DNA of 64,000 nucleotides, taken from NCBI RefSeq assembly GCF_907164915.1, contig NC_061867.1, forward strand, positions 461,001-525,000. Direction: 5' to 3'. Below, in pieces: positions 2,348 through 63,494 of the stretch. Source of the stretch: Impatiens glandulifera. Its lineage: Eukaryota; Streptophyta; Magnoliopsida; Ericales; Balsaminaceae. A program made the position numbers and the translations under genes. Under the pieces are notes generated by a model. It was not told the DNA's origin. It ran no database searches and worked only from the letters and a program-made list of their open reading frames with translations. The stretch's first letter is position 1; every line of letters starts with the position of its first letter.

Positions 2348-2387
<40 letters not shown>

Positions 2388-24049: not shown

Positions 24050-24875
24050 ATCGGTTCAAAATGTTAACTTTTTAAATATGTTTTCACGTTTTTGGCATGT
24101 TTAACACGTTTTTGACATGTTTAACACATTTTACACGTTTTTGGCACGTTTAACCACGTTTTTGACATGTTTAACACATTTTCACACTTAAAACACATTT
24201 TTACACGTTTAACATGTTTTTCACGTTTTTGGTATGTTTAACACGTTTTTGACATTTTTAATACGTTTAACATGTATTTCACATGTTTTAACAAGTTTAA
24301 CACGTTTTTCACGTTTTTAACATGTTTAACATTTTTAATACGTTTTCACACGTTTAATATGTTTTTCACGTTTTCCACACGTTTAACACGTTTTTGGCAT
24401 GTTTAACACGTTTTTCATGTTTTGGCATATTTCACACGTTTTTCACGTTTAACACGTTTAACATGTTTTTCACGTTTTTAGCACGTTAAACACATTTTTG
24501 GCATGTCTAACACAATTTTCACACGTTTTACACATTTTTGACATATTTAACATATTTTCACGTTTTGGCACGTTTAACACGTTTTTCACGTTTTTCATGT
24601 TATTCACACGCTTTTTACGTTTTCACACGTTTTTCATGTTTTACACACGTTTTTCACATGTTTTTCACGTTTTTCCACACATTTTAACACATTTTTACGT
24701 TTTTCACACGTTTTCACACGTTTTTTTTTATGTTTTTGGCACATTTAACACATTTTTGACATTTTTAATATGTTTAACATATTTTTCACACGTTTTTTTT
24801 TATGTTTTTGGCACATTTAACACATTTTTGACATTTTTAATATGTTTAACATATTTTTCACACGTTTTGATAGGT
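24050..24875 (+). repeat. CACGTTTTT/GTTTAACACG satellite, left arm
   Basis: Degenerate repeats of CACGTTTTTGGCATGTTTAA type. The complementary form makes up 24880-26555, so the two arms form one giant inverted repeat with its centre near 24875. Confidence 0.9.
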
Positions 24876-24879
24876 TTAA

Positions 24880-26555: not shown

Positions 26556-26892
26556 TGTTAATTTGGAATTACAATTCCGACCTAAAAAAATTGGAATTGA
26601 GAACTATCAAATTACACTATATTGAATTCCATTGGAATTGTAATTCTAATTTCAATTTTTAATATTAAAGTGTCTAACAAACGTAAGAATTGGAATAGAA
26701 CCCTTCAATTCCAATTTCAATGCCAATTCCAGGGTTATCAAACACACCCTAAGGGTTTATGTCTTAAGGTGCAATCGAATGTCTAAAAATACACCCTCGA
26801 ATTTGGTTATTAAATCATCAAAATCATTATAGATATAAAAATAAAAAAAACTTCAATGAATTGGTTATATGATTTTTTTAATATTCTTATTT

Positions 26893-27546: not shown

Positions 27547-29770
27547 AATCGTCATTATCTTCATTGTCAGCTTCTTCATCATCATCTTCATTCACATTTA
27601 TAGGCACAGCTTCTTCATCATAATCTTCATTCTCCCCCACCACTCCCAACTCTGAAAAAATATAGATTTATTAATGAAATAAAATAAAATTATTTAAATG
27701 AAGGTATTTTTAATTTAATCTCTTACCAATAAGTTTGTCGTAACTGCATATTAAATGATCTGTTCTATTATTTCAAAAGTCGACATGCTTTTGAAACTTT
27801 GAACCCCAATCAGGTTTCTCGGAAGATTTACGATGCTTTGATTTGGCTTTTGGAAGGGTACGAATAATGCCAATATCACTTTCTTCTAATCCCATCATTT
27901 CTAGAAAGATATGCGGCATATGGTGCGCAAGTTGTTCAAAGCATATCAACACGTTATGTGTGTATGCAACATGAAGTTGGGATTTTAGATATTGAGGTAA
28001 AAACTCAACATTCAAACGATCGTATGGTCTTGGTATAATCTATTCGAAGTTAAAAAAATATATTGTTAGTAAATAAAATTTAAAATATGAAAAAAGTAAA
28101 ACAATGATTAAACACACCTCACTCATTTGAAGAAGATTAACAAATGTATCAGCGGCCAGCTTCCCGTGATTGTTCTTGCTCTTACTAATCAAAAGAGATG
28201 ACCAAGATACAAGCAGGGGAAATTCCATTGGCAGGTCAAAAGGTATTTGGTTTAAACGCAGTGAGGCATTTGTTAGCCCATTTACGTGTTCAAACAAAAA
28301 CACCTACAATAACAATAATATCAAAAAGAATTGTTAGTATATTTAAATAATAAACATTATATTTAAAAAAATATAAAAATTAACTTACCATAAAAAATGG
28401 AATACAAGCTCCCGTAGTCGTAGTGGAATCAATTTTCATCTTCAAATGACGAACATGGTTCATTGATTGAGTCAAGAAAGCAGCTCCCCAAGCAAAGTTT
28501 TTTATTTCATCAACGTTTCTCAAAAGACTGAGAAACATGGATGAAACACCGGAGGGATTCATCGACGGACATATAAAACATCCTATTACGTGTAACACAT
28601 AGGCGCGCACATATATGTCAATATCCTCTAAATTCATGGGGATATTCTGCAGGTTTTCTCTCAACCCCTTCAATGATATTTCAGTGCCACTACGGCCTGA
28701 AACATACCGGCTATCCCCTAATAATTCATTGCACAATTGTTCTGTTACCTCTCTTCCGAAGTCTTTTCCAGTGATGGCTTCACCATCAATTTGAAGCCCC
28801 ATAATTCTTACAACATCCTTTAAGGTAGGCACTATACGTCTACCTCCAATAATAAAACAATGTTCTTCTATAGAATAACATTTTATTAAAGCCAAAAACA
28901 GGTTTAAATCCGTTCTCATCATATTGTGCATATGATGAATGTTCTTAAATCCGGTTTCATTAAGTCTTAACAAAACTCTTTTATCGACATTCCATTTAGA
29001 TAATTCAACTTGGTGGTTGCGCGTAGAAATCTAAAATAAGAAACACAAAATTAAAATCTAAATTTAACCTAAGCGACAAATTAAAAAAAAACAATTATGT
29101 TATCTGCTTAGACCTATTCTCCATTTTTTTATGGAAAATTATCTAAAGATTTAAATGTTTCCGGTTGGAAGATTATCTGAACAAAAATTCAAATAAGTCA
29201 TAAAAAAAAACAACACTACCAGACATTAAAATAAACTCAACTACAATGAAATAGAAAAATCGAGCAAAAAATTGTATAAGGTGGGTTAATCCAAAAACAT
29301 TGATCCAAAATAATATCATAGTATATTCTATCAAACCCTAATCATTGAAATAATATCAGAGTATACTCAACTAAGTATCAAACACTAATCAATTTTGAAA
29401 TAATATCATTACTCAGCTAAGTATCAAACCCTAATCAATTTTGAAATAATATCATCTTATACTCAACTTAAGTATCAAACCCTAATTGAAACAAAATAAT
29501 AAATACCTCTGTTCGTAGAAGAACGATCCGGCGTTTGATGGTTTCCGGCGGCTACTGTGGTTTCCGGCTGCGGCGGCTGCGAGCGGAGTAAAATAACAAA
29601 TAAGTATCAAAATTAGAAAAACCAGAAAAGAATTTTTGAAATACCTCAATCCGGCGGCGGCGGGCAGGCGGTTTCCGGCGGCTGCGGCTGATTTCCGGTT
29701 GTAGGTGTGCGGAGATTGGAAGAGGATTGGAAGAGAAAGGTTTGAAGGTGAAGAGAGGGTGGGTTATGCT
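27546..29770 (-). pseudogene. Plant mobile domain (PMD/MAIN-like) gene, multi-exon, with a premature stop
   Basis: Exons, in transcription order: possible 5' leader exons ending near 29646 and 29513; coding exons 29030-28389, 28303-28118, 28039-27727 and 27651-27546 (truncated). All internal edges fit GT-AG. The largest exon encodes RIVPTLKDVVRIMGLQIDGE, matching the plant mobile domain core (TLxDVxxLxGLxxxG) found in transposon-linked proteins and in the MAIN/MAIL group. Exon 28039-27727 ends KFQKHVDF-stop followed by NNRTDHLICSYDKLI in the same frame, so the TGA is probably a Trp codon changed to stop. The last exon is Asp/Glu-rich and is cut by the callose synthase fragment. No convincing ATG is seen upstream of the main exon. 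Confidence 0.7.
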
Positions 29771-29890
29771 ACAATCTATATATGTGCGATCTATGTATAA
29801 AATATTATATAATTATATATTATTTTATATTTATATATAATAAATATATATAGTAAATAGAGAGTGTCGGTGACATTCACTATTCACATT
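29771..29890. promoter_or_regulatory. Divergent AT-rich promoter-like gap between PMD and PB1 fragments
   Basis: About 120 bp of TATA-rich sequence (TATTATATAATTATATAT) separates the outward-facing 5' ends of the PMD (minus) and PB1 (plus) pieces. Copies recur at about 33690, 37595 and 41500. Function is inference from position and composition only. Confidence 0.4.
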
Positions 29891-29924
29891 CACAAGGAAT
29901 TCCCAATCGGTGAGGCAATTGGAA

Positions 29925-30586
29925 GTGCAAAAATTCTCTTCTCAACTCCTCCTCCGCTACGTCGGCGGCCACATAAGAATCCTCTCCGTCGATCGTTTCA
30001 TAACCATCGCAGGTAATTAATTAACTACTATTCCTTATTTTGATCTTAATTATTTTTGGGACCGATTGCCTTTAATTAGATTTGGATTTGGACTACTACT
30101 ACAGATCTGATGATGAAATTTGAAGAATCGTGTGGATTTCGTGTGAATTTAAAATGTAAACTTCCAAACGAAGATCTAGACGTGCTTGTTTCCATCACTT
30201 CTGACGAAAACCTAGCTAATATAATCGAAGAATACGTTCCAGCTTCATCGGCGGCATCGAATAATAATAGGGAATTGAAGATTAGAGCGATTCTGTTTCC
30301 TAATTTAAAGTCTGTTAATAAAAAAGTTCATCCGCCACTGCCGCCTGTTTCTTCTTCTTGCTCTAGCGTTGGTTCAACCTCAGGGAGTATTGCATCAATA
30401 CTGTCGTCGTCGTCGTTGGCAATTGGATTTCCGTTTCAACGCAATATTCCTTGCTACTTCGGAGAGGGTAACTTTGCTCTTTTAGTTCTTCTTCTTCGTC
30501 TTCAAATTGCTGAATGGAATTTCGATCCACTCTGTGATTTCGAGATTTCGATCCACTGTACCATGTTTATGGCCTTGTTCCTTTAA
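29925..30586 (+). pseudogene. PB1-domain protein fragment, unit 1
   Basis: Exon 1 (to 30012) encodes LRYVGGHIRILSVDRFITIA. After a 92-bp GT-AG intron, exon 2 from 30105 encodes DLMMKFEESCGFRVNLKCKL, then PNEDLDVLVSITSDENLANI. This is the PB1 domain of the plant family with the (Y)VGGxxRxLxVDR and EDLDxLVSxTSDEDLxNxxEEY signatures, a protein-protein interaction fold. The start codon and the usual preceding Gly-rich strand are missing. Exon 2 probably ended at the GAGAGG|GTAACT site near 30467; the open frame continues through former intron to a stop at 30584. Truncated at both ends, so a captured fragment. Confidence 0.8.
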
Positions 30587-30761
30587 CAGAAGAATCAATC
30601 TACAATTTTTATCGGAAAATTGATGTTCATTTCTTGTCTGATGCCTATCAATTGATAGAACACTAGCTATTCACCCTTAATGCTTTCTGTAATACATATT
30701 TCTGTTCAATTTTATGAAGTTCTCATCCCTAATTATATAATCAATTAGATGCCTGTTATAG

Positions 30762-32202
30762 GAATTCTATGCTTTGAAGCGACGTTGTAGCGGACAAGAT
30801 GGAAATTCACTTAGGTGCTTCTGCTTTGTTGCGGTAAGATGGAAATTCACATTAAATGTTGTTCTTCAGTACTTTCTCCTAGTTGATAACTGTTAGGGTC
30901 TTTTTAGTATTTCATTGGGCTGTAAAATGTAATTAGACTAGTTATGGGCTTAGTTCTAGAAAGTCAAGAAGATAGTTAGATTATACTAGTATACATTGTA
31001 GAAGATTAGTATTGTAAATGTGTGAATAAAGCTGGAAGGGTGCTTTCTACATTCTGATTTGTTTCTGGCTGTTACTTATTCATTCAATTTAGGTTAAATT
31101 CAAAATTATCCATATTACTAGCTATACATGTTCTTATCATTGCTATACATCTAAAATAGAAGAAATGCAATTTGTATTCTCCCTGAATTAAATGATTCCC
31201 ATTCTTATAACTGCTTTTGTGTTTGAGCTTTATTGATGGTATTTCTTAGATGACGGTTCCAGGTTAAAAAGGAGGACAAAAATATCCGAAGGACTGTTCT
31301 AAACAGTGTTGTGGGAACTCTGGACCTCAGCGTCCGTCAACTTTTGCAAGGAGAAAGATATCCAGGGGTACTTATCAGATCGTCATATCTTTCTAGCCCA
31401 TTTAGAAACACATTTTTTTCTCTCATATATCACATGTTTGGAAACCTGTTATATCGTTAAATAATGCAAATTCTTTTCTTATTCTTGTGAGAATATACTC
31501 TCTTTTTTATTAATATTTAGATCCACTTGATATTGCCCAAAAAACAATTGGTTATGGGTTCTTTTACATACATGAGATTGATATTTTCAAGATGTTGATT
31601 TGCATTATTCTAAGAAGATTTCTAATACATGATTAATTTAATTGTCCTGATATTTTAGGAGGTGAAAAGGGTATCTGCTATCTTGGCTAGCCAAGTGCAT
31701 TACGGAACACACCAATATGCTTACATTGCTAATGTTAGTGTTTCTAAGTTTGCTCGACGTCAGGGAATAGCTTCAAATATGCTACAGTTTGCAACAGATG
31801 TTGCTAATTTGGCAAGTTTGTTTCTTTTATTACTTGTAAATGTTACTTAATGTCTAACATTTTGTCTAAACAGGTATGAGGAAACTATTTGTACATGTAA
31901 ATGTGGAGAATGAGGTTGCTCAAGAATTGTATAAAAAAACTGGTTTTAAGGTTTGCATCTTTTACCAATAGTAACTTCTTTTTTGTCCCTATCGAGTATT
32001 GAACACATGACATATTGACATGCATGTTCTTCATTGAACAATTGATCTGTATCTTTGCAACTTCTTTATGATTTAGGTCATTTCTTGCAGTTTCCTCGAA
32101 ATCGTGTTGATAACATATAAGAGTTTACTTTTGTCCATTATATACCATATTATGTTCCGAGTGTTTGTTTGCAGGTTGTTGAAGCAGCTTCATCTAGCAG
32201 AG
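30762..32202 (+). pseudogene. GNAT acetyltransferase fragment, unit 1
   Basis: Five exons with GT-AG edges: 30762-30833 (EFYALKRRCSGQDGNSLRCF), 31263-31367 (TVLNSVVGTLDLSVRQLLQG), 31659-31815 (YAYIANVSVSKFARRQGIAS, then NMLQFATDVANLA), 31874-31950 (MRKLFVHVNVENEVAQELYK) and 32175-32202. RRQGIAS is the acetyl-CoA-binding R-x-x-G-x-G/A loop, and NxxAxxLYxKxGF is the GNAT C-terminal motif. Overall it resembles plastid GNAT proteins of plants. The N-terminus (transit peptide) and the end of the gene are missing; the next exon-like sequence belongs to RNR1. Open frame kept in this unit. Confidence 0.8.
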
Positions 32203-32302
32203 GTTTGTCTCCAGTCTATTCCTAATCACCACATCTTAATGATATATGGGGTTGAGTTATACTGAGTTGAATACTATTATCTTTTTAATAGGTTACAGCT
32301 AC

Positions 32303-33660
32303 AGTGGAATCAATTTTCGTCTTCAAATGACGAACATGGTTCATTGATTGAGCCAAAAAAGCGGCTCCCCAAGCAAAATTTTTTATTTCATCAATGTTTC
32401 TCAAAAGACCGAGAAACATGGATGAAACACCGGAGGGATTCATCGACGGACATATAAAACATCCTATTACGTGCAACACATAGGCGCGCACATATATGTC
32501 AATATCCTCCAAATTCATGGGGATATTCTGCAGGTTTTCTCTCAACCCCTTCAATGATATTTCAGTGCCACTACGGCCTGAAACATACCAGCTATCCCCT
32601 AATAATTCATTGCACAATTGTTCTGTTATCTCTCTTCCGAAGTCTTTTCCAATGACGGCTTCACCATCAATTTAAAGCCCCATAATTCTTACAACATCCT
32701 CTAAGGTAGGCACTATACGCCTACCTCCGATAATAAAACAATGTTCTTCTATAGAATAACATTGTATTAAAGCCAAAAACAGGTTTAAATCCGTTCTCAT
32801 CATATTGTGCATATGATGAATGTTCTTAAATCCGGTTTCATTAAGTCTTAACAAAACTCTTTTATCGACATTCCATTTAGATAATTCAACTTGGTTGTTG
32901 CGCGTAGAAATCTAAAATAAGAAACACAAAATTAAAATCTAAATTTAACCTAAGCGACAAATTAAAAAAAACAATTATGTTATCTGCTTAGACCTATTCT
33001 CCATTTTTTATGGAAAATTATCTAAAGATTTAAGTGTTTCCGGTTGGAAGATTATCTGAACAAAAATTCAAATAAGTCATAAAAAAAACAACACAACCAG
33101 ACATTAAAATAAACTCAACTACAATGAAAATAGAAAAATCGAGCAAAAAATTGTATAAGGAGGGTTAATCCAAAAACATTGATCCAAAATAATATCATAG
33201 TATATTATATCAAACCCTAATCATTGAAATAATATCAGAGTATACTCAACTAAGTATCAAACACTAATCAATTTTGAAATAATATCATTACTCAGCTAAG
33301 TATCAAACCCTAATCAATTTTGAAATAATATCATCTTATACTCAACTTAAGTATCAAACCCTAATTGAAACAAAATAATAAATACCTCTGTTCGTAGAAG
33401 AACGATCCGGCGTTTGATGGTTTCCGGCGGCTACTGTGGTTTCCGACTGCGGCGGCTGCTGTGGTTTAGGCTGCGGCGACTGCGGGCGTAGTAAAATAAT
33501 AAATAAGTATCAAAATTAGAAAAACCAGAAAAGAATTCTTGAAATACCTCAATCCGGCGGCAGCGGGCAGGCGGTTTCCGGCGGCTGCGGCTGATTTCCG
33601 GTTGCAGGTGTGCAGAGATTGGAAGAGGATTGGAAGAGAAATGTTTGAAGGTGAAGAGAG
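32303..33660 (-). pseudogene. PMD fragment, unit 2
   Basis: Main exon from about 32928 down to the junction at 32303, missing its last about 11 codons and all later exons. A nonsense change (CAA to TAA) at about 32671 follows RIMGL, splitting the frame. Leader exons as in unit 1. Confidence 0.8.
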
Positions 33661-33827
33661 GGTGGGTTGTGCTGCAATCTATATATGTGCGATCTATGTA
33701 TAAAATATTATATAATTATATATTATTTTATATTTATATATAATAAATATATATAGTAAATAGAGATTGTCAGTGACATTCACTATTCACATTCACAAGG
33801 AATTCCTAATCGGTGAGGCAATAGGAA

Positions 33828-34489
33828 GTGCAAAAATTCTCTTCTCAACTCCTCCTCCGCTACGTCGGCGGCCACATAAGAATCCTCTCCGTCGATCGTT
33901 TCATAACCATCGCAGGTAATTAATTAACTACTATTCCTTATTTTGATCTTAATTATTTTTGGGACCGATTGCCTTTAATTAGATTTAGATTTGGACTACT
34001 ACTACAGATCTGATGATGAAATTTGAAGAATCGTGTGGATTTCGTGTGAATTTGAAATGTAAACTTCCAAACGAAGATCTAGACGTGCTTGTTTCCATCA
34101 CTTCTGACGAAAACCTAGCTAATATAATCGAAGAATACGTTCCAGCTTCATCGGCGGCATCGAATAATAATAGGGAATTGAAGATTAGAGCTATTCTGTT
34201 TCCTAATTTAAAGTCTGTTAATAAAAAAGTTCATCCGCCACTGCCGCCTGTTTCTTCTTCTTGCTCTAGCGTTGGTTCAACCTCAGGGAGTATTGCATCA
34301 ATACTGTCGTCGTCGTCGTTGGCAATTGGATTTCCGTTTCAACGCAATATTCCTTGCTACTTCGGAGAGGGTAACTTTGCTCTTTTAGTTCTTCTTCTTC
34401 GTCTTCAAATTGCTGAATGGAATTTCGATCCACTCTGTGATTTCGAGATTTCGATCCACTGTACCATGTTTATGGCCTTGTTCCTTTAA
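33828..34489 (+). pseudogene. PB1-domain fragment, unit 2
   Basis: Same two-exon structure (exon 1 to 33915, exon 2 from 34008); the exon 2 protein is identical to unit 1. Confidence 0.8.
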
Positions 34490-34664
34490 TAGAAGAATCA
34501 AGCTACAATTTTTATCGGAAAATTGATGTTCATTTCTTGTCTGATGCCTATCAATTGATAGAACACTAGCTATTCACCCTTAATGCTTTCTATAATACAT
34601 ATTTCTGTTCAATTTTATGAAGTTCTCATCCCTAATTATATAATCAATTAGATGCCTGTTACAG

Positions 34665-36103
34665 GAATTCTATGCTTTGAAGCGACGTTGTAGCGAACAA
34701 GATGGAAATTCACTTAGGTGCTTCTGCTTTGTTGCGGTAAGATGGAAATTCACATTAAATGTTGTTCTTCAGTACTTTCTCCTAGTTGATAACTGTTAGG
34801 GTCTTTTTAGTATTTCATTGGGCTGTAAAATGTAATTAGACTAGTTATGGGCTTAGTTCAAGAAAGTCAAGAAGATAGTTAGATTATACTAGTATACATT
34901 GTAGAAGATTAGTATTGTAAATGTGTGAATAAAGCTGGAAGGGTGCTTTCTACATTCTGATTTGTTTCTGGTTGTTACTTATTCAATCAATTTAGGTTAA
35001 ATTCAAAATTATCCATATTACTAGCTATACATGTTCTTATCATTGCTATACATCTAAAATAGAAGAAATGCAATTTGTATTCTCCCTGAATTAAATGATT
35101 CCCATTCTTATAACTGCTTTTGTGTTTGAGCTTTATTGATGGTATTTCTTATATGACGGTTCCAGGTTAAAAAGGAGGAAAAAAATATTCGAAGGACTGT
35201 TCTAAACAGTGTTGTGGGAACTCTAGACCTCAGCGTCCGTCAACTTTTGCAAGGAGAAAGATATCCAGGGGTACTTATCAGATCGTCATATCTTTCTAGC
35301 CCATTTAGAAACACATTTTTTTCTCTCATATATCACATGTTTGGAAACCTGTTATATCGTTAAATAATGCAAATTCTTTTCTTATTCTTGTGAGAATATA
35401 CTCTCTTTTTTATTAATATTTAGATCCACTTGATATTGCCCAAAAAACAATTGGTTATGGGTTCTTTTACATACATGAGATTGATATTTTCAAGATGTTG
35501 ATTTGCATTATTCTAAGAAGATTTCTAATACATGATTAATTTAATTGTCCTGATATTTTAGGAGATGAAAAGGGTATCTGCTATCTTGGCTAGCCAAGTG
35601 CATTACGGAACACACCAATATGCTTACATTGCTAATGTCAGTGTTTCTAAGTTTGCTCGACGTCAGGGAATAGCTTCAAATATGCTACAGTTTGCAACAG
35701 ATGTTGCTAATTTGGCAGGTTTGTTTCTTTTATTACTTGTAAATGTTACTATGTCTAACATTTTGTCTAAACAGGTATGAGGAAACTATTTGTACATGTA
35801 AATGTGGAGAATGAGGCTGCTCAAGAATTGTATAAAAAAACTGGTTTTAAGGTTTGCATCTTTTACCAATAGTAACTTCTTTTTTGTCCCTATCGAGTAT
35901 TGAACACATGACATATTGACATGCATGTTCTTCATTGAACAATTGATCTGTATCTTTGCAACTTCTTTATGATTTAGGTCATTTCTTGCAGTTTCCTCGA
36001 AATCGTGTTGATAACATATAAGACTTTACTTTTGTCCATTATATACCATATTATGTTCCGAGTGTTTGTTTGCAGGTTGTTGAAGCAGCTTCATCTAGCA
36101 GAG
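34665..36103 (+). pseudogene. GNAT fragment, unit 2
   Basis: Exons 34665-34736, 35166-35270, 35562-35718, 35775-35851 and 36076-36103. Frame open throughout. A 2-bp loss lies in the intron before the fourth exon. Confidence 0.8.
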
Positions 36104-36203
36104 GTTTGTCTCAAGTCTATTCCTAATCACCACATCTTAATGATATATGGGGTTGAGTTATACTGAGTTGAATACTATTATCTTTTTGATAGGTTACAGC
36201 TAC

Positions 36204-37560
36204 AGTGGAATCAATTTTCGTCTTCAAATGACGAACATGGTTCATTGATTGAGCCAAGAAAGCGGCTCCCCAAACAAAGTTTTTTATTTCATCAATGTTT
36301 CTCAAAAGACCGAGAAACATGGATGAAACACCGGAGGGATTCATCGACGGACATATAAAACATCCTATTACGTGCAACACATAGGCACGCACATATATGT
36401 CAATATCCTCCAAATTCATGGGGATATTCTGCAGGTTTTCTCTCAACCCCTTCAATGATATTTCAGTGCCACTACGGCCTGAAACATACCGGCTATCCCC
36501 TAATAATTCATTGCACAATTGTTCTGTTACCTCTCTTCCGAAGTCTTTTCCAGTGACGGCTTCACCATCAATTTGAAGCCCCATAATTCTTACAACATCC
36601 TCTAAGGTAGGCACTATACGCCTACCTCCGATAATAAAACAATGTTCTTCTATAGAATAACATTGTATTAAAGCCAAAAACAGGTTTAAATCCGTTCTCA
36701 TCATATTGTGCATATGATGAATGTTCTTAAATCCGGTTTCATTAAGTCTTAACAAAACTTTTTTATCGACATTCCATTTAGATAATTCAACTTGGTGGTT
36801 GCGCGTAGAAATCTAAAATAAGAAACACAAAATTAAAATCTAAATTTAACCTAAGCGACAAATTAAAAAAACAATTATGTTATCTGCTTAGACCTATTCT
36901 CCATTTTTTATGGAAAATTATATAAAGATTTAAGTGTTTCCGGTTGGAAGATTATCTGAACAAAAATTCAAATAAGTCATAAAAAAACAACACTACCAGA
37001 CATTAAAATAAACTCAACTACAATGAAAATAGAAAAATCGAGCAAAAAATTGTATAAGGAGGGTTAATCCAAAAACATTGATCCAAAATAATATCATAGT
37101 ATATTCTATCAAACCCTAATCATTGAAATAATATCAGATTATACTCAACTAAGTATCAAACACTAATCAATTTTGAAATAATATCATTACTCAGCTAAGT
37201 ATCAAACCCTAATCAATTTTGAAATAATATCATCTTATACTCAACTTAAGTATCAAACCCTAATTGAAACAAAATAATAAATACCTCTGTTCGTAGAAGA
37301 ACGATCCGGCGTTTGATGGTTTCCGGCTGCGGCGGCTGCTGTGGTTTCCGGCTGCGGCGGCTGCTGTGGTTTAGGCTGCGGCGGCTGCGGGCGGAGTAAA
37401 ATAACAAATAAGTATCAAAATTAGAAAAACCAGAAAAGAATTCTTGAAATACCTCAATCCGGCGGCGGCGGGCATGCGGTTTCCGGCGGCTGCGGCTGAT
37501 TTCTGGTTGCAGGTGTGCGGAGATTGGAAGAGGATTGGAAGAGAAATGTTTGAAGGTGAA
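36204..37560 (-). pseudogene. PMD fragment, unit 3
   Basis: The main exon frame is open from about 36830 to the junction, then reads into RNR1 antisense to a stop at 36123. Later exons missing. The GC-rich leader has an extra CCGGCTGCGGCGGCTGCTGT repeat near 37320-37390. Confidence 0.8.
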
Positions 37561-37734
37561 GAGAGGGTGGGTTGTGCTGCAATCTATATATGTGCGATCT
37601 ATGTATAAAATATTATATAATTATATATTATTTTATATTTATATATAATAAATATATATAGTAAATAGAGAGTGTCGGTGACATTCACTATTCACATTCA
37701 CAAGGAATTCCCAATCGGTGAGGCAATTGGAAGT

Positions 37735-38394
37735 GCAAAAATTCTCTTCTCAACTCTTCCTCCGCTACGTCGGCGGCCACATAAGAATCCTCTCCGTCGA
37801 TCGTTTCATAACCATCGCAGGTAATTAATTAACTACTATTCCTTATTTTGATCTTAATTATTTTTGGGACCGATTGCCTTTAATTAGATTTGGATTTGGA
37901 CTACTACTACAGATCAGATGATGAAATTTGAAGAATCGTGTGGATTTCGTGTGAATTTGAAATGTAAACTTCCAAACGAAGATCTAGACGTGCTTGTTTC
38001 CATCACTTCTAACGAAGACCTAGCTAATATAATCGAAGAATACGTTCGAGCTTCATCGGCGACATCGAATAATAATAGGGAATTGAAGATTAAAGCGATT
38101 CTGTTTCCTAATTTAAAGTTTGTTAATAAAAAAGTTCATCCGCCACCGCCGCCTGTTTCTTCTTCTTGCTCTAGCGTTGGTTCAACCTCAGGGAGTATTG
38201 CATCAATACTGTCGTCGTCGTCGTTGACAATTGGATTTCCGTTTCAACGCAATATTCCTTGCTACTTCGGAGAGGGTAACTTTGCTCTTTTAGTTCTTCT
38301 TCTTCGTCTTCAAATTGCTGAATGGAATTTCGATCCACTCTGTGATTTCGAGATTTCGATCCACTGTACCATGTTTATGGCCTTGTTCCTTTAA
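37735..38394 (+). pseudogene. PB1-domain fragment, unit 3
   Basis: Exon 1 to 37820, exon 2 from 37913. Differs from units 1-2 at several residues (for example NEDLAN, EEYVRASSAT). Together with unit 4 it forms a second subfamily of the array. Confidence 0.8.
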
Positions 38395-38569
38395 TAGAAG
38401 AATCAAGCTACAATTTTTATCGGAAAATTGATGTTCATTTCTTATCTGATGCCTATCAATTGATAGAACACTAGCTATTCACCCTTAATGCTTTCTATAA
38501 TACATATTTCTGTTCAATTTTATGAAGTTCTCATCCCTAATTATATAATCAATTAGATGCCTGTTACAG

Positions 38570-40010
38570 GAATTCTATGCTTTGAAGCGACGTTGTAGCG
38601 GACAAGATAGAAATTCACTTAGGTGCTTCTGCTTTGTTGTGGTAAGATGGAAATTCACATTAAATGTTGTTCTTCAGTACTTTCTCCTAGTTGATAACTA
38701 TTAGGGTCTTTTTAGTATTTCATTGGGCTGTAAAATGTAATTAGACTAGTTATGGGCTTAGTTCAAGAAAGTCAAGAAGATAGTTAGATTATACTAGTAT
38801 ACATTGTAGAAGATTAGTATTGTAAATGTGTGAATAAAGCTGGAAGGGTGCTTTCTACATTCTGATTTGTTTCTGGCTGTTACTTATTCATTCAATTTAG
38901 GTTAAATTCAAAATTATCCATATTACTAGCTATACATGTTCTTATCATTGCTATACATCTAAAATAGAAGAAATGCAATTTGTATTCTCCCTGAATTAAA
39001 TGATTCTCATTCTTATAACTGCTTTTGTGTTTGAGCTTTATTGATGGTATTTCTTATATGACGGTTCCAGGTTAAAAAGGAGGACAAAAATATCCGAAGG
39101 ACTGTTCTAAACAGTGTTGTGGGAACTCTGGACCTCAGCGTCCGTCAACTTTTGCAAGGAGAAAGATTTCCAGGGGTATTTATCAGATCGTCATATCTTT
39201 CTAGCCCATTTAGAAACACATTTTTTTCTCTCATATATCACATGTTTGGAAACCTGTTATATCGTTAAATAATGCAAATTCTTTTCTTATTCTTGTGAGA
39301 ATATACTCTCTTTTTTATTAATATTTAGATCCACTTGATATTTGCCAAAAAACAATTGGTTATGGGTTCTTTTACATACATGAGATTGATATTTTCAAGA
39401 TGTTGATTTGCATTATTCTAAGAAGATTTCTAATACATGATTAATTTAATTGTCCTGATATTTTAGGAGATGAAAAGGGTATCTGCTATCTTGGCTAGCC
39501 AAGTGCATTACGGAACACACCAATATGCTTACATTGCTAATGTCAGTGTTTCTAAGTTTGCTCGACGTCAGGGAATAGCTTCAAATATGCTACAGTTTGC
39601 AACAGATGTTGCTAATTTGGCAGGTTTGTTTCTTTTATTACTTATAAATGTTACTTAATGTCTAACATTTTGTCTAAACAGGTATGAGGAAACTATTTGT
39701 ACATGTAAATGTGGAGAATGAGGCTGCTCAAGAATTGTATAAAAAAACTGGTTTTAAGGTTTGCATCTTTTACCAATAGTAACTTCTTTTTTGTCCCTAT
39801 CGAGTATTGAACACATGACATATTGACATGCATGTTCTTCATTGAACAATTGATCTGTATCTTTGCAACTTCTTTATGATTTAGGTCATTTCTTGTAGTT
39901 TCCTCGAAATCGTGTTGATAACATATAAGACTTTACTTTTGTCCATTATATACCATATTATGTTCCGAGTGTTTGTTTGCAGGTTGTTGAAGCAGCTTCA
40001 TCTAGCAGAG
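38570..40010 (+). pseudogene. GNAT fragment, unit 3
   Basis: Exons 38570-38641, 39071-39175, 39467-39623, 39682-39758 and 39983-40010. Frame open. Confidence 0.8.
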
Positions 40011-40110
40011 GTTTGTCTCCAGTCTATTCCTAATCACCACATCTTAATGATATATGGGGTTGAGTTATACTGAGTTGAATACTATTATCTTTTTGATAGG
40101 TTACAGCTAC

Positions 40111-41460
40111 AGTGAAATCAATTTTCGTCTTCAAATGACGAACATGGTTCATTGATTGAGCCAAGAAAGCGGCTCCCCAAGCAAAGTTTTTTATTTCATC
40201 AATGTTTCTCAAAAGACCGAGAAACATGGATGAAACACCGGAGGGATTCATCTACGGACATATAAAACATCCTATTACGTGCAACACATAGGCGCGCACA
40301 TATATGTCAATATCCTCCAAATTCATGGGGATATTCTGCAGGTTTTCTCTCAACCCCTTCAATGATATTTCAGTGCCACTACGGCCCGAAACATACCGGC
40401 TATCCCCTAATAATTCATTGCACGATTGTTCTGTTACCTCTCTTCCGAAGTCTTTTCCAGTGACGGCTTCACCATCAATTTGAAGCCCCATAATTCTTAC
40501 AACATCCTCTAAGGTAGGCACTATACGCCTACCTCCGATAATAAAACAATGTTCTTCTATAGAATAACATTGTATTAAAGCCAAAAACAGGTTTAAATCC
40601 GTTCTCATCATATTGTGCATATGATGAATGTTCTTAAATCTGGTTTCATTAAGTCTTAACAAAACTCTTTTATCGACATTCCATTTAGATAATTCAACTT
40701 GGTGGTTGCGCGTAGAAATCTAAAATAAGAAACACAAAATTAAAATCTAAATTTAACCTAAGCGACAAATTAAAAAAACAATTATGTTATCTGCTTAGAC
40801 CTATTCTCCATTTTTTATGGAAAATTATATAAAGATTTAAGTGTTTCCGGTTGGAAGATTATCTGAACAAAAATTCAAATAAGTAATAAAAAAAACAACA
40901 CTACCAGACATTAAAATAAACTCAACTACAATGAAAATAGAAAAATCGAGCAAAAAATTGTATAAGGAGGGTTAATCCAAAAACATTGATCCAAAATAAT
41001 ATCATAGTATATTCTATCAAACCCTAATCATTGAAATAATATCAGATTATACTCAACTAAGTATCAAACACTAATCAATTTTGAAATAATATCATTACTC
41101 AGCTAAGTATCAAACCCTAATCAATTTTGAAATAATATCATCTTATACTCAACTTAAGTATCAAACCCTAATTGAAACAAAATAATAAATACCTCTGTTC
41201 GTAGAAGAACGATCCGGCGTTTGATGGTTTCCGGCGGCTACTGTGGTTTCCAGCTGCGGCGGCTGCTGTGGTTTAGGCTGCGGCGGCTGCGGGCGGAGTA
41301 AAATAACAAATAAGTATCAAAATTAGAAAAACCAGAAAAAAATTCTTGAAATACCTCAATCCGGCGGTGGCGGGCATGCGGTTTCCGACGGCTGCGGCTG
41401 ATTTCCGGTTGCAGGTGTGCGGAGATTGGAAGAGGATTGGAAGAGAAATGTTTGAAGGTG
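40111..41460 (-). pseudogene. PMD fragment, unit 4
   Basis: As unit 3, but a TCG-to-TAG change near 40252-40254 (FICP-stop-MNPSG) splits the frame. Confidence 0.8.
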
Positions 41461-41629
41461 AAGAGAGGGTGGGTTGTGCTGCAATCTATATATGTGCGAT
41501 CTATGTATAAAATATTATATAATTATATATTATTTTATATTTATATATAATAAATATATATAGTAAATAGAGAGTGTCGGTGACATTCACTATTCACATT
41601 CACAAGGAATTCCCAATCGGTGAGGAGGA

Positions 41630-42292
41630 AGTGCAAAAATTCTCTTCTCAACTCCTCCTCCGCTACGTCGGCGGCCACATAAGAATCCTCTCCTTTGATC
41701 GTTTCATAACCATCGCAAGTAATTAATTAACTACTATTCCTTATTTTGATCTTAATTATTTTTGGGACCGATTGCCTTTAATTAGATTTGGATTTGGACT
41801 ACTACTACAGATCTGATGATGAAATTTGAAGAATCGTGTGGATTTCGTGTGAATTTGAAATGTAAACTTCCAAACGAAGATCTAGACGTGCTTGTTTCTA
41901 TCACTTCTGACGAAGACCTAGCTAATATAATCGAAGAATACGTTCGAACTTCATCGGCGACATCGAATAATAATAGGGAATTGAAGATTAGAGCGATTCT
42001 GTTTCCTAATTTAAAGTCTGTTAATAAAAAAGTTCATCCGCCACCGCCGCATGTTTCTTCTTCTTGCTCCAGCGTTGGTTCAACCTCAGGGAGTGTTGCA
42101 TCAATACTGTCGTCGTCGTCGTTGGCAATTGGATTTCCGTTTCAACGCAATATTCCTTGCTGCTTCGGAGAGGGTAACTTTGCTCTTTTAGTTCTTCTTC
42201 TTCGTCTTCAAATTGCTGAATATAATTTTGATCCACTCTGTGATTTCGAGATTTCGATCCACTGTACCATGTTTATGGCCTTGTTCCTTTAA
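41630..42292 (+). pseudogene. PB1-domain fragment, unit 4
   Basis: Exon 1 ends at 41718, where CGCAG|GT has become CGCAA|GT; exon 2 from 41811. A short deletion precedes exon 1 (GGTGAGGAGGAAGTGC). Encodes DEDLANIIEEYVRTSSATSN. Confidence 0.8.
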
Positions 42293-43997: not shown

Positions 43998-45492
43998 GTT
44001 ACAGCTATAGTGACTACAAATCTCAACAAAATAATTGATATTAATTACTACCCTATTGAGACTGCTGAAAGGTCAAACATGCGTCATAGGCCAATTGGTA
44101 TAGGAGTTCAAGGCCTCGCAGATACTTTCATTTTACTAGGCATGCCATTTGAGTCACCAGAGGCAAGAAGCTGAATCTCATAAGGCCTTTCTCTTAAGCT
44201 ATTGATGATTACACTCATGTTTTGATTGTCGGCTTGGTTATGAAATGCAGGCGCAACAGCTTAACAAAGACATCTTTGAGACAATATATTACCATGCTCT
44301 CAAAGATTCTTCTGAATTGGCAGCAAAGGTAGGTGCTTATGAGACATATAATGGAAGTCCCGTTATCCAGGTATGTGAATTTTTTGTGTTAACTTTTCAT
44401 AAGTATATTTTTAGTAAGGCCTTCCCCTAGTAGCTTCTTAGATGCATTCTTCTTTTCAGGGTATACTCCAGCCAGATATGTGGGGTGTTACACCTTCAAA
44501 ACGCTGGGATTGGGATGCCCTTAGAGCTATGATAGCAAAGGATGGTGTGAGGAATTCACTTCTTGTAGCACCCATGCCCACTGCTTCAAATAATGAATGC
44601 TTTGAACCTTACACATCAAATATTTACAGCCGCAGAGTTTTAAGGTATTTTTCTTTGGCTTTTTTTCGTTGTTCCTTGGCGTGTATTTTTTGTTGCATGC
44701 TAATCTTGGTTATTTATGCCAGTGGGGAATTTGTTGTGGTGAATAAGCATCTTCTTCACGACTTAACTGAGATGGGCTATGGTCTCCTGCTCTGAAGAAT
44801 CAGATTATATATGAAAATGGTTCTGTTCAGAAAATTCGTCAAATTTCTGAAGAGATAAAGCCAATTTACAAGTATGCAAATTATCTTGACCTTTAATTAA
44901 TGTACCCATCCCAATTCTGTTTGCATATTTGAACTATTACATATGTTTCCATTCCAGAACTGTTTGGGAGATTAAGCAGAAGACATTAGTTGATATGTCA
45001 GTTGATCGTGGATGCTACATAGACCAAAGCCAAAGCCTTAATATCCACATGGACGAGCCAAATTTTGGAAAACTGACTTCCTTGCATTTCCATACTTGGT
45101 CAAAGGTAAATGTTTAACTTTGACATTATTATGACACTAAATAAATAGAATGATTGGTAGGAAATCCTGTTGTGCTAATATGTGTTTGTTTTGGGGGTTG
45201 GCGAAGGGTTTGAAAACAGGGATGTATTACTTGAGAACCCGTGCTGCTGCTGATGCAATAAAATTCACAGTTGATACAACCATTCTCCAAGTAATAATAA
45301 TATATTTATATATACATTTTGAGTTTAGAATGCAATTATATATAATCATTATGTCCCCGTTCTATCTGGCAATGCAATGTAATGCAGGGAAAGACCAAGG
45401 TGAAAGAAGAAGAAGATGATCTCGATACCCAGAAGTCACAGATGGTATGTTCCTTGACCAACCGAGAAGATTGCATGGCATGTGGCAGTTGA
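43998..45492 (+). pseudogene. Ribonucleotide reductase large subunit, C-terminal third
   Basis: Seven exons: 43998-44162, 44251-44370, 44460-44644, 44723-44871, 44958-45105, 45207-45290 and 45388-45492. They encode [20 protein letters not shown]...[112 protein letters not shown] and the C-terminal redox tail NREDCMACGS-stop. The family reduces NDPs to dNDPs in the cytosol. Defects: the N-terminal two thirds with the catalytic NxCxE site are absent; about six residues (TSQILG-like) are missing between PTAS and NNECFEP; one base is lost in exon 4 after HDLTEMG. The first intron appears to use a GC donor (CCAGAG|GCAAGA). Confidence 0.9.
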
Positions 45493-50811: not shown

Positions 50812-52752
50812 ATTTAACATATTTTCACGTTTTGGCATGTTTAACACGTTTTTCACGTTTTTCATGTTATTCACACACTTTTCACGTTTTACACACGTTT
50901 TTCACATGTTTTCACGTTTTTCCACACATTTTAACTTATTTTTACGTTTTTCACACGTTTTCACACGTTTTTTTTTTATGTTTTTGTCACATTTAACACA
51001 TTTTTAACATTTTAAATATGTTTAACATTTTTTCACACGTTTTGATAGGTTTAAAACGTGTTAAACATGTCAAAAACGTAAAAACGTGTTAAACATATCA
51101 AAAATGTGTTAAATGTGCCAAATAAGTGAAAAACTTGTTAAACGTGCCAAAACGTGTTAAAAACGTTAAATGTGTTAAAAATGTGTCAAATGTGTCAAAA
51201 ACGTAAAAAACATGTGAAACGTGTCAACAACATGTTAAATATGTTTAATGTGTTAAAAACGTTTTAAATGTGTTAAAAACATGAAAACGTGTCAAAAATG
51301 TGTGAAACGTTCCAAACATGTGAAAAACTTGTTAAACGTGTCAAAAATGAGGTAAACGTGTCAAAAATGTAAAAAATGTGTTAAATGTGTAAAAAACATG
51401 AAAACGTGTTAAACATATCAAAAACGTATTAAATGTGTAAAAACGTGAAAACGTGTCAAAAATGTTTTAAATATGTGAAAAACTTGTTAAACATGCCAAA
51501 ACGTGCAAAATGTGCCAAAATATAAAAATATGAAAACGTGTCAAAAACGTGTTAAACATTCCAAACATGTGACAAACTTGTTAAACGTGTCAAAATATGA
51601 AAAACGTGTTAAACGTGTCAAAATGTGGTAAACGTGTCAAAAACGTATACAAATGTGTTAAATGTGTCAAAAACGTGAAAACGTGTTAAACGTGTCAAAA
51701 ACGTAAAAAAAAACATGTTAAATGTGTCAAAAACGTGAAAACGTGTTAAACGTATCAAAAACATGTTAAATATGTGAAAAACTTGTTAAACGTGTCAAAA
51801 TGTGCAAAATGTGCCAAAATGTAAAAAAAACGTGTCAAAAACGTGTTAAACGTGTCAAGGACGTGTTAAACGTGTCAAGGACGTGTTAAACGTGTCAAGG
51901 ACGTGTTAAACGTGTCAAAGACGTGAAAAACGTGTTAAATGTGTAAAAACGTATTAAACATGTCAAAAACATGTTAAACGTGCCCAAAACGTGTTAAACG
52001 TGTTAAAAACGTGAAAATCATGTTAAACGTGTCAAAAACGTGTTAAACGTGTCAAAAACGTGTTAAACGTGTCAAGAACGTGAAAACGTGTTAAACGTGT
52101 CAAAACATGTTAAACGTGCCAAAAACGTGTTAAACGTGCCAAAATATAAAACTATGTTAAACGTGTCAAAAACATGTTAAATGTGTCAAAAACGTGAAAA
52201 CATGTTAAACATGTCGAAAACATGTTAAATATGTAAAAAACTTGTTAAACGTGTCAAAACGTGCAAATTGTGTCGTAATGTAAAAAACGTGTTAAACGTG
52301 TTAAAAATATAAAAATTATGTTAAACGTGTCAAAAACGTGTTAAACGTGTCAAGGACGTGAAAAACGTGTTAAATGTGTCAAAAAAATGTTAAACGTGTC
52401 AAGGACGTGAAAAACGTGTTAAATGTGTCAAAAACGTGTTAAACGTGTCAAAAATGTGTTAAACGTGTTAAACGTGCCAAATACGTGTTAAACATGTCAA
52501 AAACGTGCTAAAAACGTGAAAATCATGTTAAACGTGTCAAACGTGTTAAATGTGTCAAAAATGTATTAAACGATGTCAAAAACGTGTTAAACGTGCCAAA
52601 AACGTGTTAAACGTGCCAAAATATTAAAATATGTTAAACGCGTAAAAAACGTGTTAAAAACGTGTTAAACGTGTTTAATGTGTGAAAAACGTGTTAAACG
52701 TGTTTAATGTGTGAAAAACGTGTTAAATATGTCAAAAACATGAAAAATTTAT
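50812..52752. repeat. Truncated second copy of the inverted AACGTG satellite
   Basis: Corresponds to about 24547-26580 of the first copy with the same centre (GTTTTGATAGGTTTAAAACG) and the same order of variants, plus local gains and losses. Both Harbinger-like ends are missing; the right side passes directly into the sequence shared with 26893. Confidence 0.88.
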
Positions 52753-60637: not shown

Positions 60638-60899
60638 CCAATAAAAATAGTCAACTTAAGAGATTAAAAGATCACGGTTTCGATTCCCACCGTAAGCGAA
60701 GAACCGTAATTGTAGGTCATAATTAAATAAATAAATTATAAGCACACCTATATCGATCTTTGATTTTTTTATGTTGTGGGTTTCAGGTTGTAAGAGACTT
60801 TAATTTGGTGTGAGTGATTTTATTTGTTTCTTTTTTTTTCTCCCCTCGCACTTTATTTCACATAAAATCTTGAAATGGAATCAAAATTTTGAACGGTAA

Positions 60900-61689
60900 T
60901 CTATATATATATAATGATGCTTAATTTTTAAAGTGTCCGGATTGCCGGGTCGAGAGCTGTGGTTAATTTGGATACTTGGTCGGATTGTGGGTTGACCCGT
61001 TTTTAAATTTAAAACGGTTAAAAATAAAATTAAAAATGCTAGAGGTATGTTTCGAACTTGCAACCTAACAAAACAAGTACAACTCTTTAATCAACTAGGC
61101 TACAAAGACTTTATATTTTAAATTCAACACCAAATTTGATAAACGCGAGATGTTTTAATATTAATATAAGTTCAACTTTTTAACTAACTAATCTATATAT
61201 ATATAATGATGCTTAATTTTTAAAGTGTCCGGATTGCCGGGTCGAGAGCTGTGGTTAATTTGGATACTTGGGTCGGATTGTGGGTTGACCCTTTTTTAAA
61301 TTTAAAACGGTTAAAAATAAAATTAAAAATGCTATAGGTATGTTTCGAACTTGCAACCTAACAAAACAAGTACAACTCTTTAACCAACTAGGCTACAAAA
61401 ACTTTATATTTTAAATTCAACACCAAATTTGATAAACGCGGGACGTTTTAATATTAATATAAGTTCAACTTTTTAACTAACTAATATATATATATATAAT
61501 GATGCTTAATTTTTAAAGTGTCCGGATTGCCGGGTTGAGAGCTGTGATTAATTTGGATACTCGGGTCGGATTGTGGGTTGACCCGTTTTTAAATTTAAAA
61601 CGGTTAAAAATAAAATAAAAAATGTTATCCGTAATTTTTTTCACGGTTTTTATATTATTACTTGTGCAAATGCACGGATTAAATGCTAG
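60900..61689 (+). mobile_element. Helitron (same family as 1730-3506), three 5' units
   Basis: Starts TCTATATATATATAATGATG after A60899; ends with hairpin CTTGTGC-AAAT-GCACGGA and CTAG (61686-61689) before T. Three tandem 5' units start at 60900, 61192 and about 61484 (292-bp spacing). The homologous flank of the other PIP locus (near 15440-15490) runs straight from CACATAAAATCTTGAA to TTATAAAGTAATACAATCTA without it, an independent check of both ends. Confidence 0.9.
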
Positions 61690-62467
61690 TTTATAAAGTA
61701 ATACAATCTATATACATGATGTTGAAGATTATTTTCTAATGAATTGATTTATAAAAATGATAGATAAGTAACTAATATATTCTAAACAAAATAACTATAT
61801 AAATAATACCAAACTAAAAAGTGAAATGAGAAATTAACTTAGTCATGAAAAATTTAAGTTATTCTATAATCTATATTTTCACATATTCGAATTTATTAAT
61901 ATTATTATTTTCTAAAAATATATATTTTGAAAGACTCACAATGGTGCATTATATATAAAGGTATGTCTTTACACACATGAGTTCGATAATAATCTTGGAT
62001 CCATTTATAAGGTTAACTACATACTATTTTCATGACTAATTTAACGACATTAATCAGAAATACCATTGTCACCTGTCACTAATTCCTTTATATGGATCGG
62101 CTGACATCACCTTTAGCTACGGTCAGGGGCGGAGCCAAGTACAAGCTAGCCCGGGCGGTAGCCTGGGTAGGCTGTTTTTATCAATAACGACGGTAAATTA
62201 CCGTCGTTATTGGTTATTTTCTGTCGCTAAAAAACATCGGTGACAACAAACTATAAAACTAGCCCGGATAAATTTTTTAATAAAAAATTAGTCCAGATAT
62301 AAAAAATTTTGAAACGCATAATAATTTGCTAACAATTAAACAGCTTATTAAATATATAAATATATAGGTTTTAATATAATTTAATTAACTTAAGATGATT
62401 GCAAATTAAATGAAACCAGAATAAACTACCTAAAGCGCGAAGTGGTACTAGGTAGTTTTAACGACCA
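61690..62467. other. Downstream flank of the multi-PIP gene
   Basis: 61690-62085 matches 15480-15977, and 62310-62467 partly matches 19370-19548. Between about 62090 and 62310 is non-matching sequence with GGGCGGAGCC and ATAACGACGGTAAATTACCGTCGTTAT, probably an inserted transposon remnant. No gene. Confidence 0.6.
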
Positions 62468-63445
62468 CTAATGTCCTTGACCTGGGGGGCTTGGCCCGGA
62501 ATCCTTCATAGAAAAGTCGATGGCGCGCTCATGCCCTTGACCCGGGGGGCTTGGCCCAGAATCCTTCATAGAAAAGTCACTCACACTCTCATGTCCTTGA
62601 CCTGGGGGGCTTGGCCCGGAATCCTTCATAGAAAAGTCATTCGCGCGCTCATGTCCTTGATCCGGGGGACTTGACCCGGAATGCTTAAAAGAAAAGTCGC
62701 TCGCGCGCTCATGTCCTTGACCCGGGGGGCTTGGCCCAGAATGCTTCATAGAAAAGTCGTTCGCGCGTTCATGTCCTTGACCCGGGGGGCTTGGCCCGGA
62801 ATGCTTCATAGAAAAGTCGCTCGCGCGCTCATGTCCTTGACCCGGTGGGCTTGGCCCAGAATCCTTCATGGAAAAGTCGATCACGCGCTCATGTCCTTGA
62901 CCCGGTGGGCTTGGCCCAGAATCCTTCATGGAAAAGTCGCTCGCGCGCTCATGTCCTTGACCCGGTGGGCTTGGCCCTGAATCCTTCATAGAAAAGTCGC
63001 TCGCGCACTCATGTCCTTGACCCGGTGGGCTTGGCCCTGAATGCTTCATAGAAAAGTCGCTCGCGCGCTCATGTCCTTGACCCGGTGGGCTTGGCCCAGA
63101 ATGCTTCATAGAAAAGTCGCTCGCGCGCTCATGTCCTTGACCCGGGGGGCTTGGCCCAGAATGCTTCATAGAAAAGTCGCTCGCGCGCTCATGTCCTTGA
63201 CCCGGAGGACTTGGCCCAGAATCCTTCATAGAAAAGTCGCTCGCGCGCTCATGTCCTTGACCCGGGGGGCTAGGCCCAGAAAACTTGCTCACTGATTTGA
63301 CAATGACAATCCCTCGGTTGAATATTCCACGACGTGGATGGTGATCATGATGATGACGATCAAGGACTCGGGCTGCATCTATTGCATGAAGCAGACACGA
63401 GGCCAACACCATTAAAATGATGACCATTGACAGTTTTTGAGCCAT
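62468..63445 (-). CDS. Multi-PIP secreted peptide precursor with 14 tandem motifs
   Basis: 325 residues. Residues 1-24 form a signal peptide (MAQKLSM then VIILMVLASCLLH, cut probably after AIDA). Residues 25-55 are a short His/Arg-rich and variable stretch. From residue 56 come 13 complete copies of a 20-residue unit (consensus SGPSPPGQGHERASDFSMKD, with D/H alternating at the end) and a fourteenth half-copy ending SGPSPPGQGH-stop. SGPSxxGxGH is the core of PIP/PIPL signalling peptides, released outside the cell; family members normally carry one or two copies. All 14 copies are recognisable; only copy 11 is changed in the core (SGSSPPDQGH). The last motif ends exactly at the stop, as in canonical PIPs. 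N-terminal region and start are shared with the two-motif gene at 19549. The frame is intact over about 0.8 kb of repeat, which argues for function; expression is unknown. Confidence 0.87.
   Translation of the reverse strand: MAQKLSMVIILMVLASCLLHAIDAARVLDRHHHDHHPRRGIFNRGIVIVKSVSKFSGPSPPGQGHERASDFSMKDSGPSPPGQGHERASDFSMKHSGPSPPGQGHERASDFSMKHSGPSPPGQGHERASDFSMKHSGPSPPGQGHECASDFSMKDSGPSPPGQGHERASDFSMKDSGPSPPGQGHERVIDFSMKDSGPSPPGQGHERASDFSMKHSGPSPPGQGHERANDFSMKHSGPSPPGQGHERASDFSFKHSGSSPPDQGHERANDFSMKDSGPSPPGQGHESVSDFSMKDSGPSPPGQGHERAIDFSMKDSGPSPPGQGH
62471..63280 (-). repeat. 60-bp coding minisatellite (13.5 copies)
   Basis: Thirteen and a half 60-bp units, in frame, nearly identical at DNA level and much richer in G+C (CTCGCGCGCTCATGTCCTTG on the plus strand) than all surrounding DNA. 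Every unit is exactly 60 bp, with no indels. Confidence 0.95.
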
Positions 63446-63485: not shown

Positions 63486-63494
63486 CTTATATAA
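63486..63494 (-). promoter_or_regulatory. Probable TATA box of the multi-PIP gene
   Basis: The minus strand reads ATTATATAAG about 45 bp before the ATG, same position as in the paralog. Confidence 0.55.

Follow-up and report, generated by a model that had tools for sequence, protein, structure and literature searches.

A locus near the end of a stretch of Impatiens glandulifera DNA raises the question of whether a plant peptide hormone precursor with 14 tandem PIP-type motifs is a working gene or a repeat that happens to stay open. The stretch, called the window here, comprises 64,000 nucleotides (positions 461,001 to 525,000 of contig NC_061867.1, assembly GCF_907164915.1, forward strand), and the locus is an open reading frame (ORF) at 62468-63445 on its minus strand, which will be referred to as the array gene. 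We consider it probable that the array gene is an intact and extreme PIP2-like member of the PIP/PIPL family, located in a local gene cluster and serving as a polyprecursor from which many near-identical peptides are released. The assignment to the PIP/PIPL family is well supported by sequence comparison, and an amplification of a wound or immune signal by the repeated motifs is a plausible proposal. Published work is cited from extracts of the papers, and the statements drawn from it are limited to these extracts.

The fourteen-motif reading frame

The frame at 62468-63445 is uninterrupted and encodes 325 residues with 14 PIP-type motifs. It is treated as the coding sequence of a 14-motif PIP2-like precursor on the basis of the frame and of its homology to a 98-residue gene in the same window. 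The motifs begin at residues 56, 76 and so on to 316, with a period of exactly 20 residues, and none of the 14 units contains a premature stop. The last unit ends with the stop codon (62468-62470, minus strand) directly after Gly-His. An earlier note, made from the letters alone, had given the same coordinates, frame, copy number, spacing and Gly-His-stop end, all of which are borne out. It had also described the motif as SGPSPPGQGH in every copy; this is exact for 13 of the 14 motifs, but unit 11 reads SGSSPPDQGH.

The array itself (62471-63280, minus strand) is formed by 13 full 20-residue units and a final 10-residue motif. Tandem Repeats Finder, run on the window, reports a 60-bp unit at this place with 13.5 copies and 92% matches, and the G+C content of the array is 58% as compared with 31% for the window. 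The linker had been given as ERASDFSMK[D/H], which is too narrow, since unit positions 12, 13, 14, 18 and 20 all vary among the 13 full units. Glu11, Asp15, Phe16, Ser17 and Lys19 are invariant in all 13 linkers, and a Lys is found at position -2 before each of the 14 motifs. Any two full units differ at 0-9 of their 60 bases, and units 4 and 8 are the only identical pair. The residue that closes the linker follows the order D-HHH-DDD-HHH-DDD over the 13 units. A six-unit higher-order duplication, considered because of this order, was rejected as the similarity at an offset of six units is ordinary (25% of permutations are as low).

Residues 1-25 (MAQKLSMVIILMVLASCLLHAIDAA; 63371-63445, minus strand) form a probable signal peptide, with a boundary placed by hydropathy and by the alignment of the paralogues. 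Judged by hydropathy only, the N-terminus has a hydrophobic core with a mean Kyte-Doolittle value of 3.11 across 11 residues from position 8, and it ends in an Ala-Ala-Arg junction. Arg26 (DAA-R26-VLD) comes right after the predicted signal peptide, as the PIP/PIPL rule (PMC4526919) demands, and an Arg also follows the signal peptide region in both paralogues with a preserved N-terminus. A variable region rich in His and Arg (residues 26-55, RVLDRHHHDHHPRRG...SVSKF; 63281-63370, minus strand) connects the signal peptide to the array. The C-terminal SGPS-PP-GQGH-stop has the SGPS and GxGH elements expected of PIP/PIPL members, with GxGH at the very end of the protein, and SGPS and GxGH are separated by two residues in 14 of the 14 units, in agreement with the spacing used for PIP/PIPL members in a wheat survey (PMC9532867). 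The single Cys after residue 25 is in line with the cysteine-poor character of such precursors, and this part of the protein contains 18% Ser, 14% Gly and 14% Pro. Upstream of the frame, a candidate TATA box (TTATATAA; 63487-63494, minus strand) lies ~40 bases before the ATG and is kept in the alignment with the 98-residue paralogue, which points to a putative promoter function. On the other side, the 3' flank (62317-62467, minus strand) is homologous by BLASTN to the flank of the same paralogue.

Other ways of reading this DNA were tried and rejected. A plus-strand gene would have to be assembled from frames of 67, 99 and 84 residues that are interrupted by stops, and a matching antisense frame contains 3 stops across the 13 full units. 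Rfam gives no RNA match, and Pfam gives no domain in either the array protein or the 98-residue paralogue. Five weak matches to PDB entries (best E 0.072) are read as chance.

Paralogues, relatives and known precursors

A six-frame motif scan and BLASTN of the window detected three further PIP-like loci, one intact and two broken, all on the strand of the array gene; the earlier note says nothing of them. The intact paralogue (19549-19845, minus strand) encodes 98 residues with two motifs, SGPSPGQGH and SGPSPGEGH, which are set at a 19-residue spacing by the 10-residue linker ERTSDLSTKD and followed by the C-terminal tail EHHPFVMITHHNRP. The two genes are 87% identical in an alignment of 353 columns that begins shortly before the TATA-like box and runs through the N-terminus into the second unit. 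An additional upstream segment shows 71% identity across 286 columns, and a BLASTN segment running from the last array units into the 3' flank shows 67% identity across 297 columns. According to the alignment, the array gene has no counterpart of the tail-coding stretch of the 98-residue gene, so that its last motif meets the stop directly. Three extra bases in the array motif add a second proline to the single one of the paralogues. This insertion is common to all 14 array units, as compared with the one-residue spacing of the local paralogues, and the linker carries Phe in 13 of 13 array units as compared with Leu in the paralogue. Since all array units share both features, the sequences suggest that the expansion or homogenisation of the array came after the insertion and the Phe had arisen.

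The second locus (11118-11340, minus strand) is a broken paralogue in which a stop ends the N-terminal part after 48 codons and the motif part (SPGEGHEHTSDLSMKDSGPSPGQGH-stop) is in a different frame. The third (22879-22940, minus strand) is a 5'-truncated fragment (EHTSDLSMKDSGPSPGQGH-stop), and the sequence downstream of it resembles that of the 11.1-kb copy. A conserved W-box was considered and rejected, since the array gene has TTGACT upstream where the intact paralogue has TTGGCT.

Relatives outside the window have been collected with a profile (A1) built from a guava protein (P0001) and two window sequences, which share both motifs when aligned. The profile retrieves 266 proteins at E <= 10. 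The counts that follow refer to the best 120 of these 266, all with E <= 4.9e-10, and the profile reaches lengths of ~54-171 residues. Several of the 120 are named PAMP-induced secreted peptide 2-like (from Vigna, Gastrolobium, Mercurialis, Prosopis and others), and the 91 with an organism name are all from plants. Homology to the PIP/PIPL family is accepted because the profile, itself derived partly from the array gene, retrieves these named proteins; together with the DNA homology to the intact two-motif gene, this upholds the earlier description of the gene as PIP-type.

The relatives differ widely in motif number, with no motif in 15, one in 12, two in 34, three in 40 and four in 19. By a looser pattern only 1 of the 120 is without a motif and one protein (P0011) has five. 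Of the 59 relatives with three or four motifs, 43 are from named plants. The proportion of 59 in 120 is not a population or family frequency, because the best-scoring hits favour multi-motif proteins. Repeat PIP2-like precursors occur in many species, many of them eudicots. The earlier statement that PIP precursors usually carry one or two motifs is therefore correct for Arabidopsis but does not extend to these 59 proteins. A Lys at position -2 is found in 255 of the 276 motifs of the relatives and an Asp at -1 in 135. The protein ends on GH in 66 of the 120, as the array protein does, and a loose pattern of Arg after the signal peptide is present in 109. The motifs are 9 residues long in 161 cases, 10 in 113 and 11 in 2, with one, two and three residues, respectively, between SGPS and GxGH. 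These lengths coexist, often within one protein, which places the extra Pro of the array within the variation of the family. None of the 120 relatives has the exact SGPSPPGQGH; SGPSPGQGH is present in 29. Among the 59 relatives with at least three motifs, four have three identical cores and none has more, as compared with 13 of 14 in the array.

Some of the matches deserve mention for their own sake. Several from Eucalyptus grandis carry close locus numbers (H02228, H02235, H02236 and H02243), and the adjacency of these names suggests that this species may also hold a local PIP2-like cluster. In Eucalyptus globulus P0006, nine consecutive prolines follow SGPS in the last motif. With the array protein as the query, neither the bacterial nor the viral collection gave a relative, and the viral collection gave none with profile A1. 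A Nocardioides stretch (L001) matched by the profile at 41% identity was taken as chance.

In Arabidopsis, eight single-motif and three double-motif PIP/PIPL members have been described (PMC4526919, PMC4154866). The three with two motifs, PIP2, PIP3 and PIPL1, have 84-108 residues, and all listed members have 69-108 (PMC4526919). A study of PIP evolution covering 128 genes in 23 species reports members with one and two SGP motifs (PMC10704477), and in the extract of the wheat survey multi-domain PIP were not found (PMC9532867). The 325 residues and 14 motifs of the array gene fall outside the Arabidopsis range, and the earlier note was right in calling 14 motifs unusual, as this number is far above the one or two seen there (PMC4526919). 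The mismatch concerns the variant and not the homology, since relatives with three or four motifs exist. Among the matches listed for PIP or SGPS motifs and repeats, the literature extracts mention neither a PIP precursor that exceeds two PIP motifs nor a wide occurrence of three- or four-motif PIP2-like precursors in eudicots. In the literature text search, motif forms longer than SGPSPP were absent, and SGPSPP was present only in three papers judged unrelated by title.

The organization of the array gene is that of PIP2, PIP3, PIPL1 and the Nicotiana benthamiana TIPTOP, which has two tandem sGPSPGxGH motifs (PMC5427549): a secretory N-terminus, an Arg, a variable region and repeated C-terminal SGPS/GxGH motifs. 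It differs from the three Arabidopsis proteins in having 14 motifs in 325 residues instead of two in 84-108. With the PIP2-like proteins of legumes, Eucalyptus and Xanthoceras it shares the motif repeats, the Lys at -2 and the frequent GH end, and Xanthoceras P0015 has four motifs at the same 20-residue spacing. However, these relatives reach four motifs, or five by the looser pattern, whereas the array has 14.

Multiplied peptide domains have been described in other families as well. MtCLE14 contains seven CLE domains, four of them identical (PMC4526924), and in 2008 multi-domain CLE genes were proposed to amplify the signal (PMC2254619). As in the array gene, a peptide hormone domain of MtCLE14 is multiplied in frame and in tandem, but the peptide family is a different one and the copy number is half. 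CEP precursors resemble the array gene in having GxGH-ending motifs, several in each precursor; AtCEP9 has five (PMC4526919), and pea precursors combine CEP and PIP-like domains (PMC9739355). Given MtCLE14, AtCEP9 and the amplification proposed for CLE genes, the principle is already known, and it is the copy number and the uniformity of the cores that are new. By the rule of the wheat survey, a CEP has a single proline between two half-motifs (PMC9532867). The array gene departs from this one-Pro criterion in all 14 motifs, each with two residues at this place, while a one-residue spacing is found in the local paralogues and in 161 of the 276 motifs of the relatives. As a result, the border between PIP and CEP is not sharp.

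Constraint, alternatives and proposed processing

The open frame is by itself weak evidence for a gene, because 1,333 of 2,000 column-shuffled arrays retained at least one open frame; with a 60-bp period, a unit without a stop leads to an array with hardly any stop. A chance open frame was rejected on other grounds, namely the homologous two-motif gene, the family found by the profile and the excess of synonymous changes in the core. Compared with the consensus unit, the array carries 23 distinct base changes. The 10 changes in the core comprise 8 synonymous and 2 nonsynonymous ones, both of the latter in unit 11, and the 13 in the linker comprise 5 synonymous and 8 nonsynonymous ones. In a simulation of 20,000 runs, the same changes were placed randomly at matching bases and CpG contexts. 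For the core, 7.98 nonsynonymous or stop changes were expected as compared with 2 observed, and two or fewer were obtained in 0.085% of the runs (P = 0.00085). The mean pairwise nonsynonymous and synonymous divergences (dN/dS) among units are 0.015/0.316 for the core and 0.083/0.299 for the linker.

Several results weigh against the view of the array gene as an intact polyprecursor. The linker is without detectable constraint in the simulation (8 nonsynonymous changes observed, 8.86 expected including stops, P = 0.43), which is unexpected if each linker carries a strict cleavage site, and the direct contrast between core and linker is not significant (Fisher P = 0.09). The simulation also counts distinct changes as independent, though the units of an array may exchange sequence. 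In the N-termini of the two intact paralogues, dN/dS is 0.066/0.110, a ratio just mildly below 1. Synonymous divergence is larger within the array (0.30) than between these N-termini (0.11), which a higher rate in the array or a conversion of the 5' region could explain. The cluster of four loci includes two broken ones, so its members do decay. The family link, finally, depends on the profile, since single queries found no significant relative. The 325-residue protein gave none at E <= 10 among 23 candidates, in a search that spans lengths of ~178-567 residues and that a long relative with diverged words could escape. The 98-residue paralogue gave only the guava protein P0001, whose E of 0.77 is not significant.

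The same evidence bears on four alternatives. The array may be a minisatellite that has grown in a redundant, decaying paralogue, functionless and open only by recency, as the behavior of the shuffled arrays, the two broken neighbours and the abundance of tandem repeats in the window (145 rows, with overlapping ones counted) might suggest. Its units, however, are not fresh copies, as they differ by up to 9 of 60 bases; their core differences are concentrated at synonymous positions, and the promoter, start and 3' flank match those of the intact paralogue. We regard this explanation as quite improbable. An unlikely explanation, too, is that only the terminal motif or a few motifs are released and the other copies act as a passive spacer, leaving an ordinary PIP output despite the growth of the array. 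The missing linker constraint is consistent with it, and the authors of the wheat survey note that switchgrass genes with several TDIF-like domains gave no enhanced activity in Arabidopsis (PMC9532867). On the other hand, passive internal copies should drift, whereas 13 of the 14 cores are identical in protein though their codons differ, the core changes are mostly synonymous and a Lys at -2 precedes all 14 motifs.

A structural role has also been considered, in which the product is a Ser-Pro-rich apoplastic repeat protein of the hydroxyproline-glycoprotein kind and not a hormone precursor. The Ser, Gly and Pro content given above is compatible with this, and SPP-type sequence, as present in the array, could plausibly be hydroxylated at its prolines and glycosylated. 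The Pfam null result does not decide the matter. The full PIP grammar of SGPS-xx-GxGH, the terminal GH and the Lys at -2, as in relatives named signalling peptides, make a structural protein very improbable. Tandem arrays are prone to assembly error, and the true copy number could be smaller than 14. In this array of ~0.8 kb, however, the 13 full units include a single identical pair (4 and 8), so that most units can be distinguished, and an assembly artefact is hardly credible.

For the favored reading, a polyprecursor of the PIP/PIPL family, a sequence of events can be proposed. The C-terminal unit of motif and linker (60 bp) would have expanded in frame, presumably through unequal exchange, until there were 14 copies. 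The precursor would be secreted, and apoplastic proteases would cut near the invariant Lys before each motif and after Gly-His. The prolines of the released peptides would be hydroxylated. As many as 14 peptides could come from one precursor, the two main forms being MKD-SGPSPPGQGH and MKH-SGPSPPGQGH. They may act on an RLK7-type receptor, and the tandem motifs would raise the peptide dose per transcript. In Arabidopsis, prePIP1 is secreted and cut close to its C-terminus, and the synthetic 13-mer acts via RLK7 (PMC4154866).

Products of 13 residues, the length of AtPIP1, are predicted to be MKDSGPSPPGQGH from seven of the 14 sites, MKHSGPSPPGQGH from five and a singleton from each of the other two. 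The many identical peptides of the earlier note are thus reduced to four predicted 13-mers, two of which would indeed be multiple (seven and five copies). Because the sites fall into four sequences, the predicted output is two main near-identical peptides and not one. The claim that another protease specificity is needed, made because the linker has no dibasic site, has to be dropped. The protease that processes PIP precursors is described as not yet identified (PMC11371470), and a Lys at -2 is found throughout the array and in most motifs of the relatives, so a new specificity does not follow from the absence of a dibasic site.

A more far-reaching proposal, which we advance tentatively and rate slightly below even, is that a hormone precursor has turned into a true polyprotein. 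Selection would have held 13 of the 14 cores identical in the face of codon drift, the K-[D/H] linker would be tuned to the release of every unit, and a single mRNA would supply one immune peptide in a large dose gated by proteases, whereas the three or four motifs of the relatives would have diverged into different peptides. If every unit is released, the array gene would offer a natural dose experiment, with 14 copies of nearly one ligand beside an intact two-motif sister with a similar promoter, and would allow a test of whether precursor copy number raises signal output, as proposed for CLE genes (PMC2254619). The repeated unit with its invariant Lys would also be a good substrate for finding the PIP-processing protease.

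Other features of the window

Four tandem segments of ~3.9 kb occupy 28380-42292, each with an ORF of 158 residues (at 30110, 34013, 37918 and 41816). The copies of this ORF share 149-158 of 158 residues, and a Pfam scan of the first copy identifies a PB1 domain. An ORF with a Plant mobile domain is located at 28380-28931, and similar-looking ORFs are present at 36123 and 40252. Two long arrays of GTTTAACACGTTTTT-like units (24081-26561 and 50813-52739) flip to the complementary orientation part-way, giving rise to many inverted-repeat pairs. Two further tandem arrays, at 2371-3432 and 60897-61628, have units of 310 and 293 bp, and the starts of their consensus sequences share AATGATGCTTAATTTTTAAAGTGTCCGGATTGCCGGG.

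A MYB gene at the edge of the window (45-692) contains two Myb DNA-binding stretches (PF00249), and a Copia-type gag ORF (PF14223) is found on the minus strand at 6918-8108. The 117-residue ORF at 44442-44795 is a partial match to the ribonucleotide reductase barrel domain (PF02867) and is perhaps a gene fragment or an exon.
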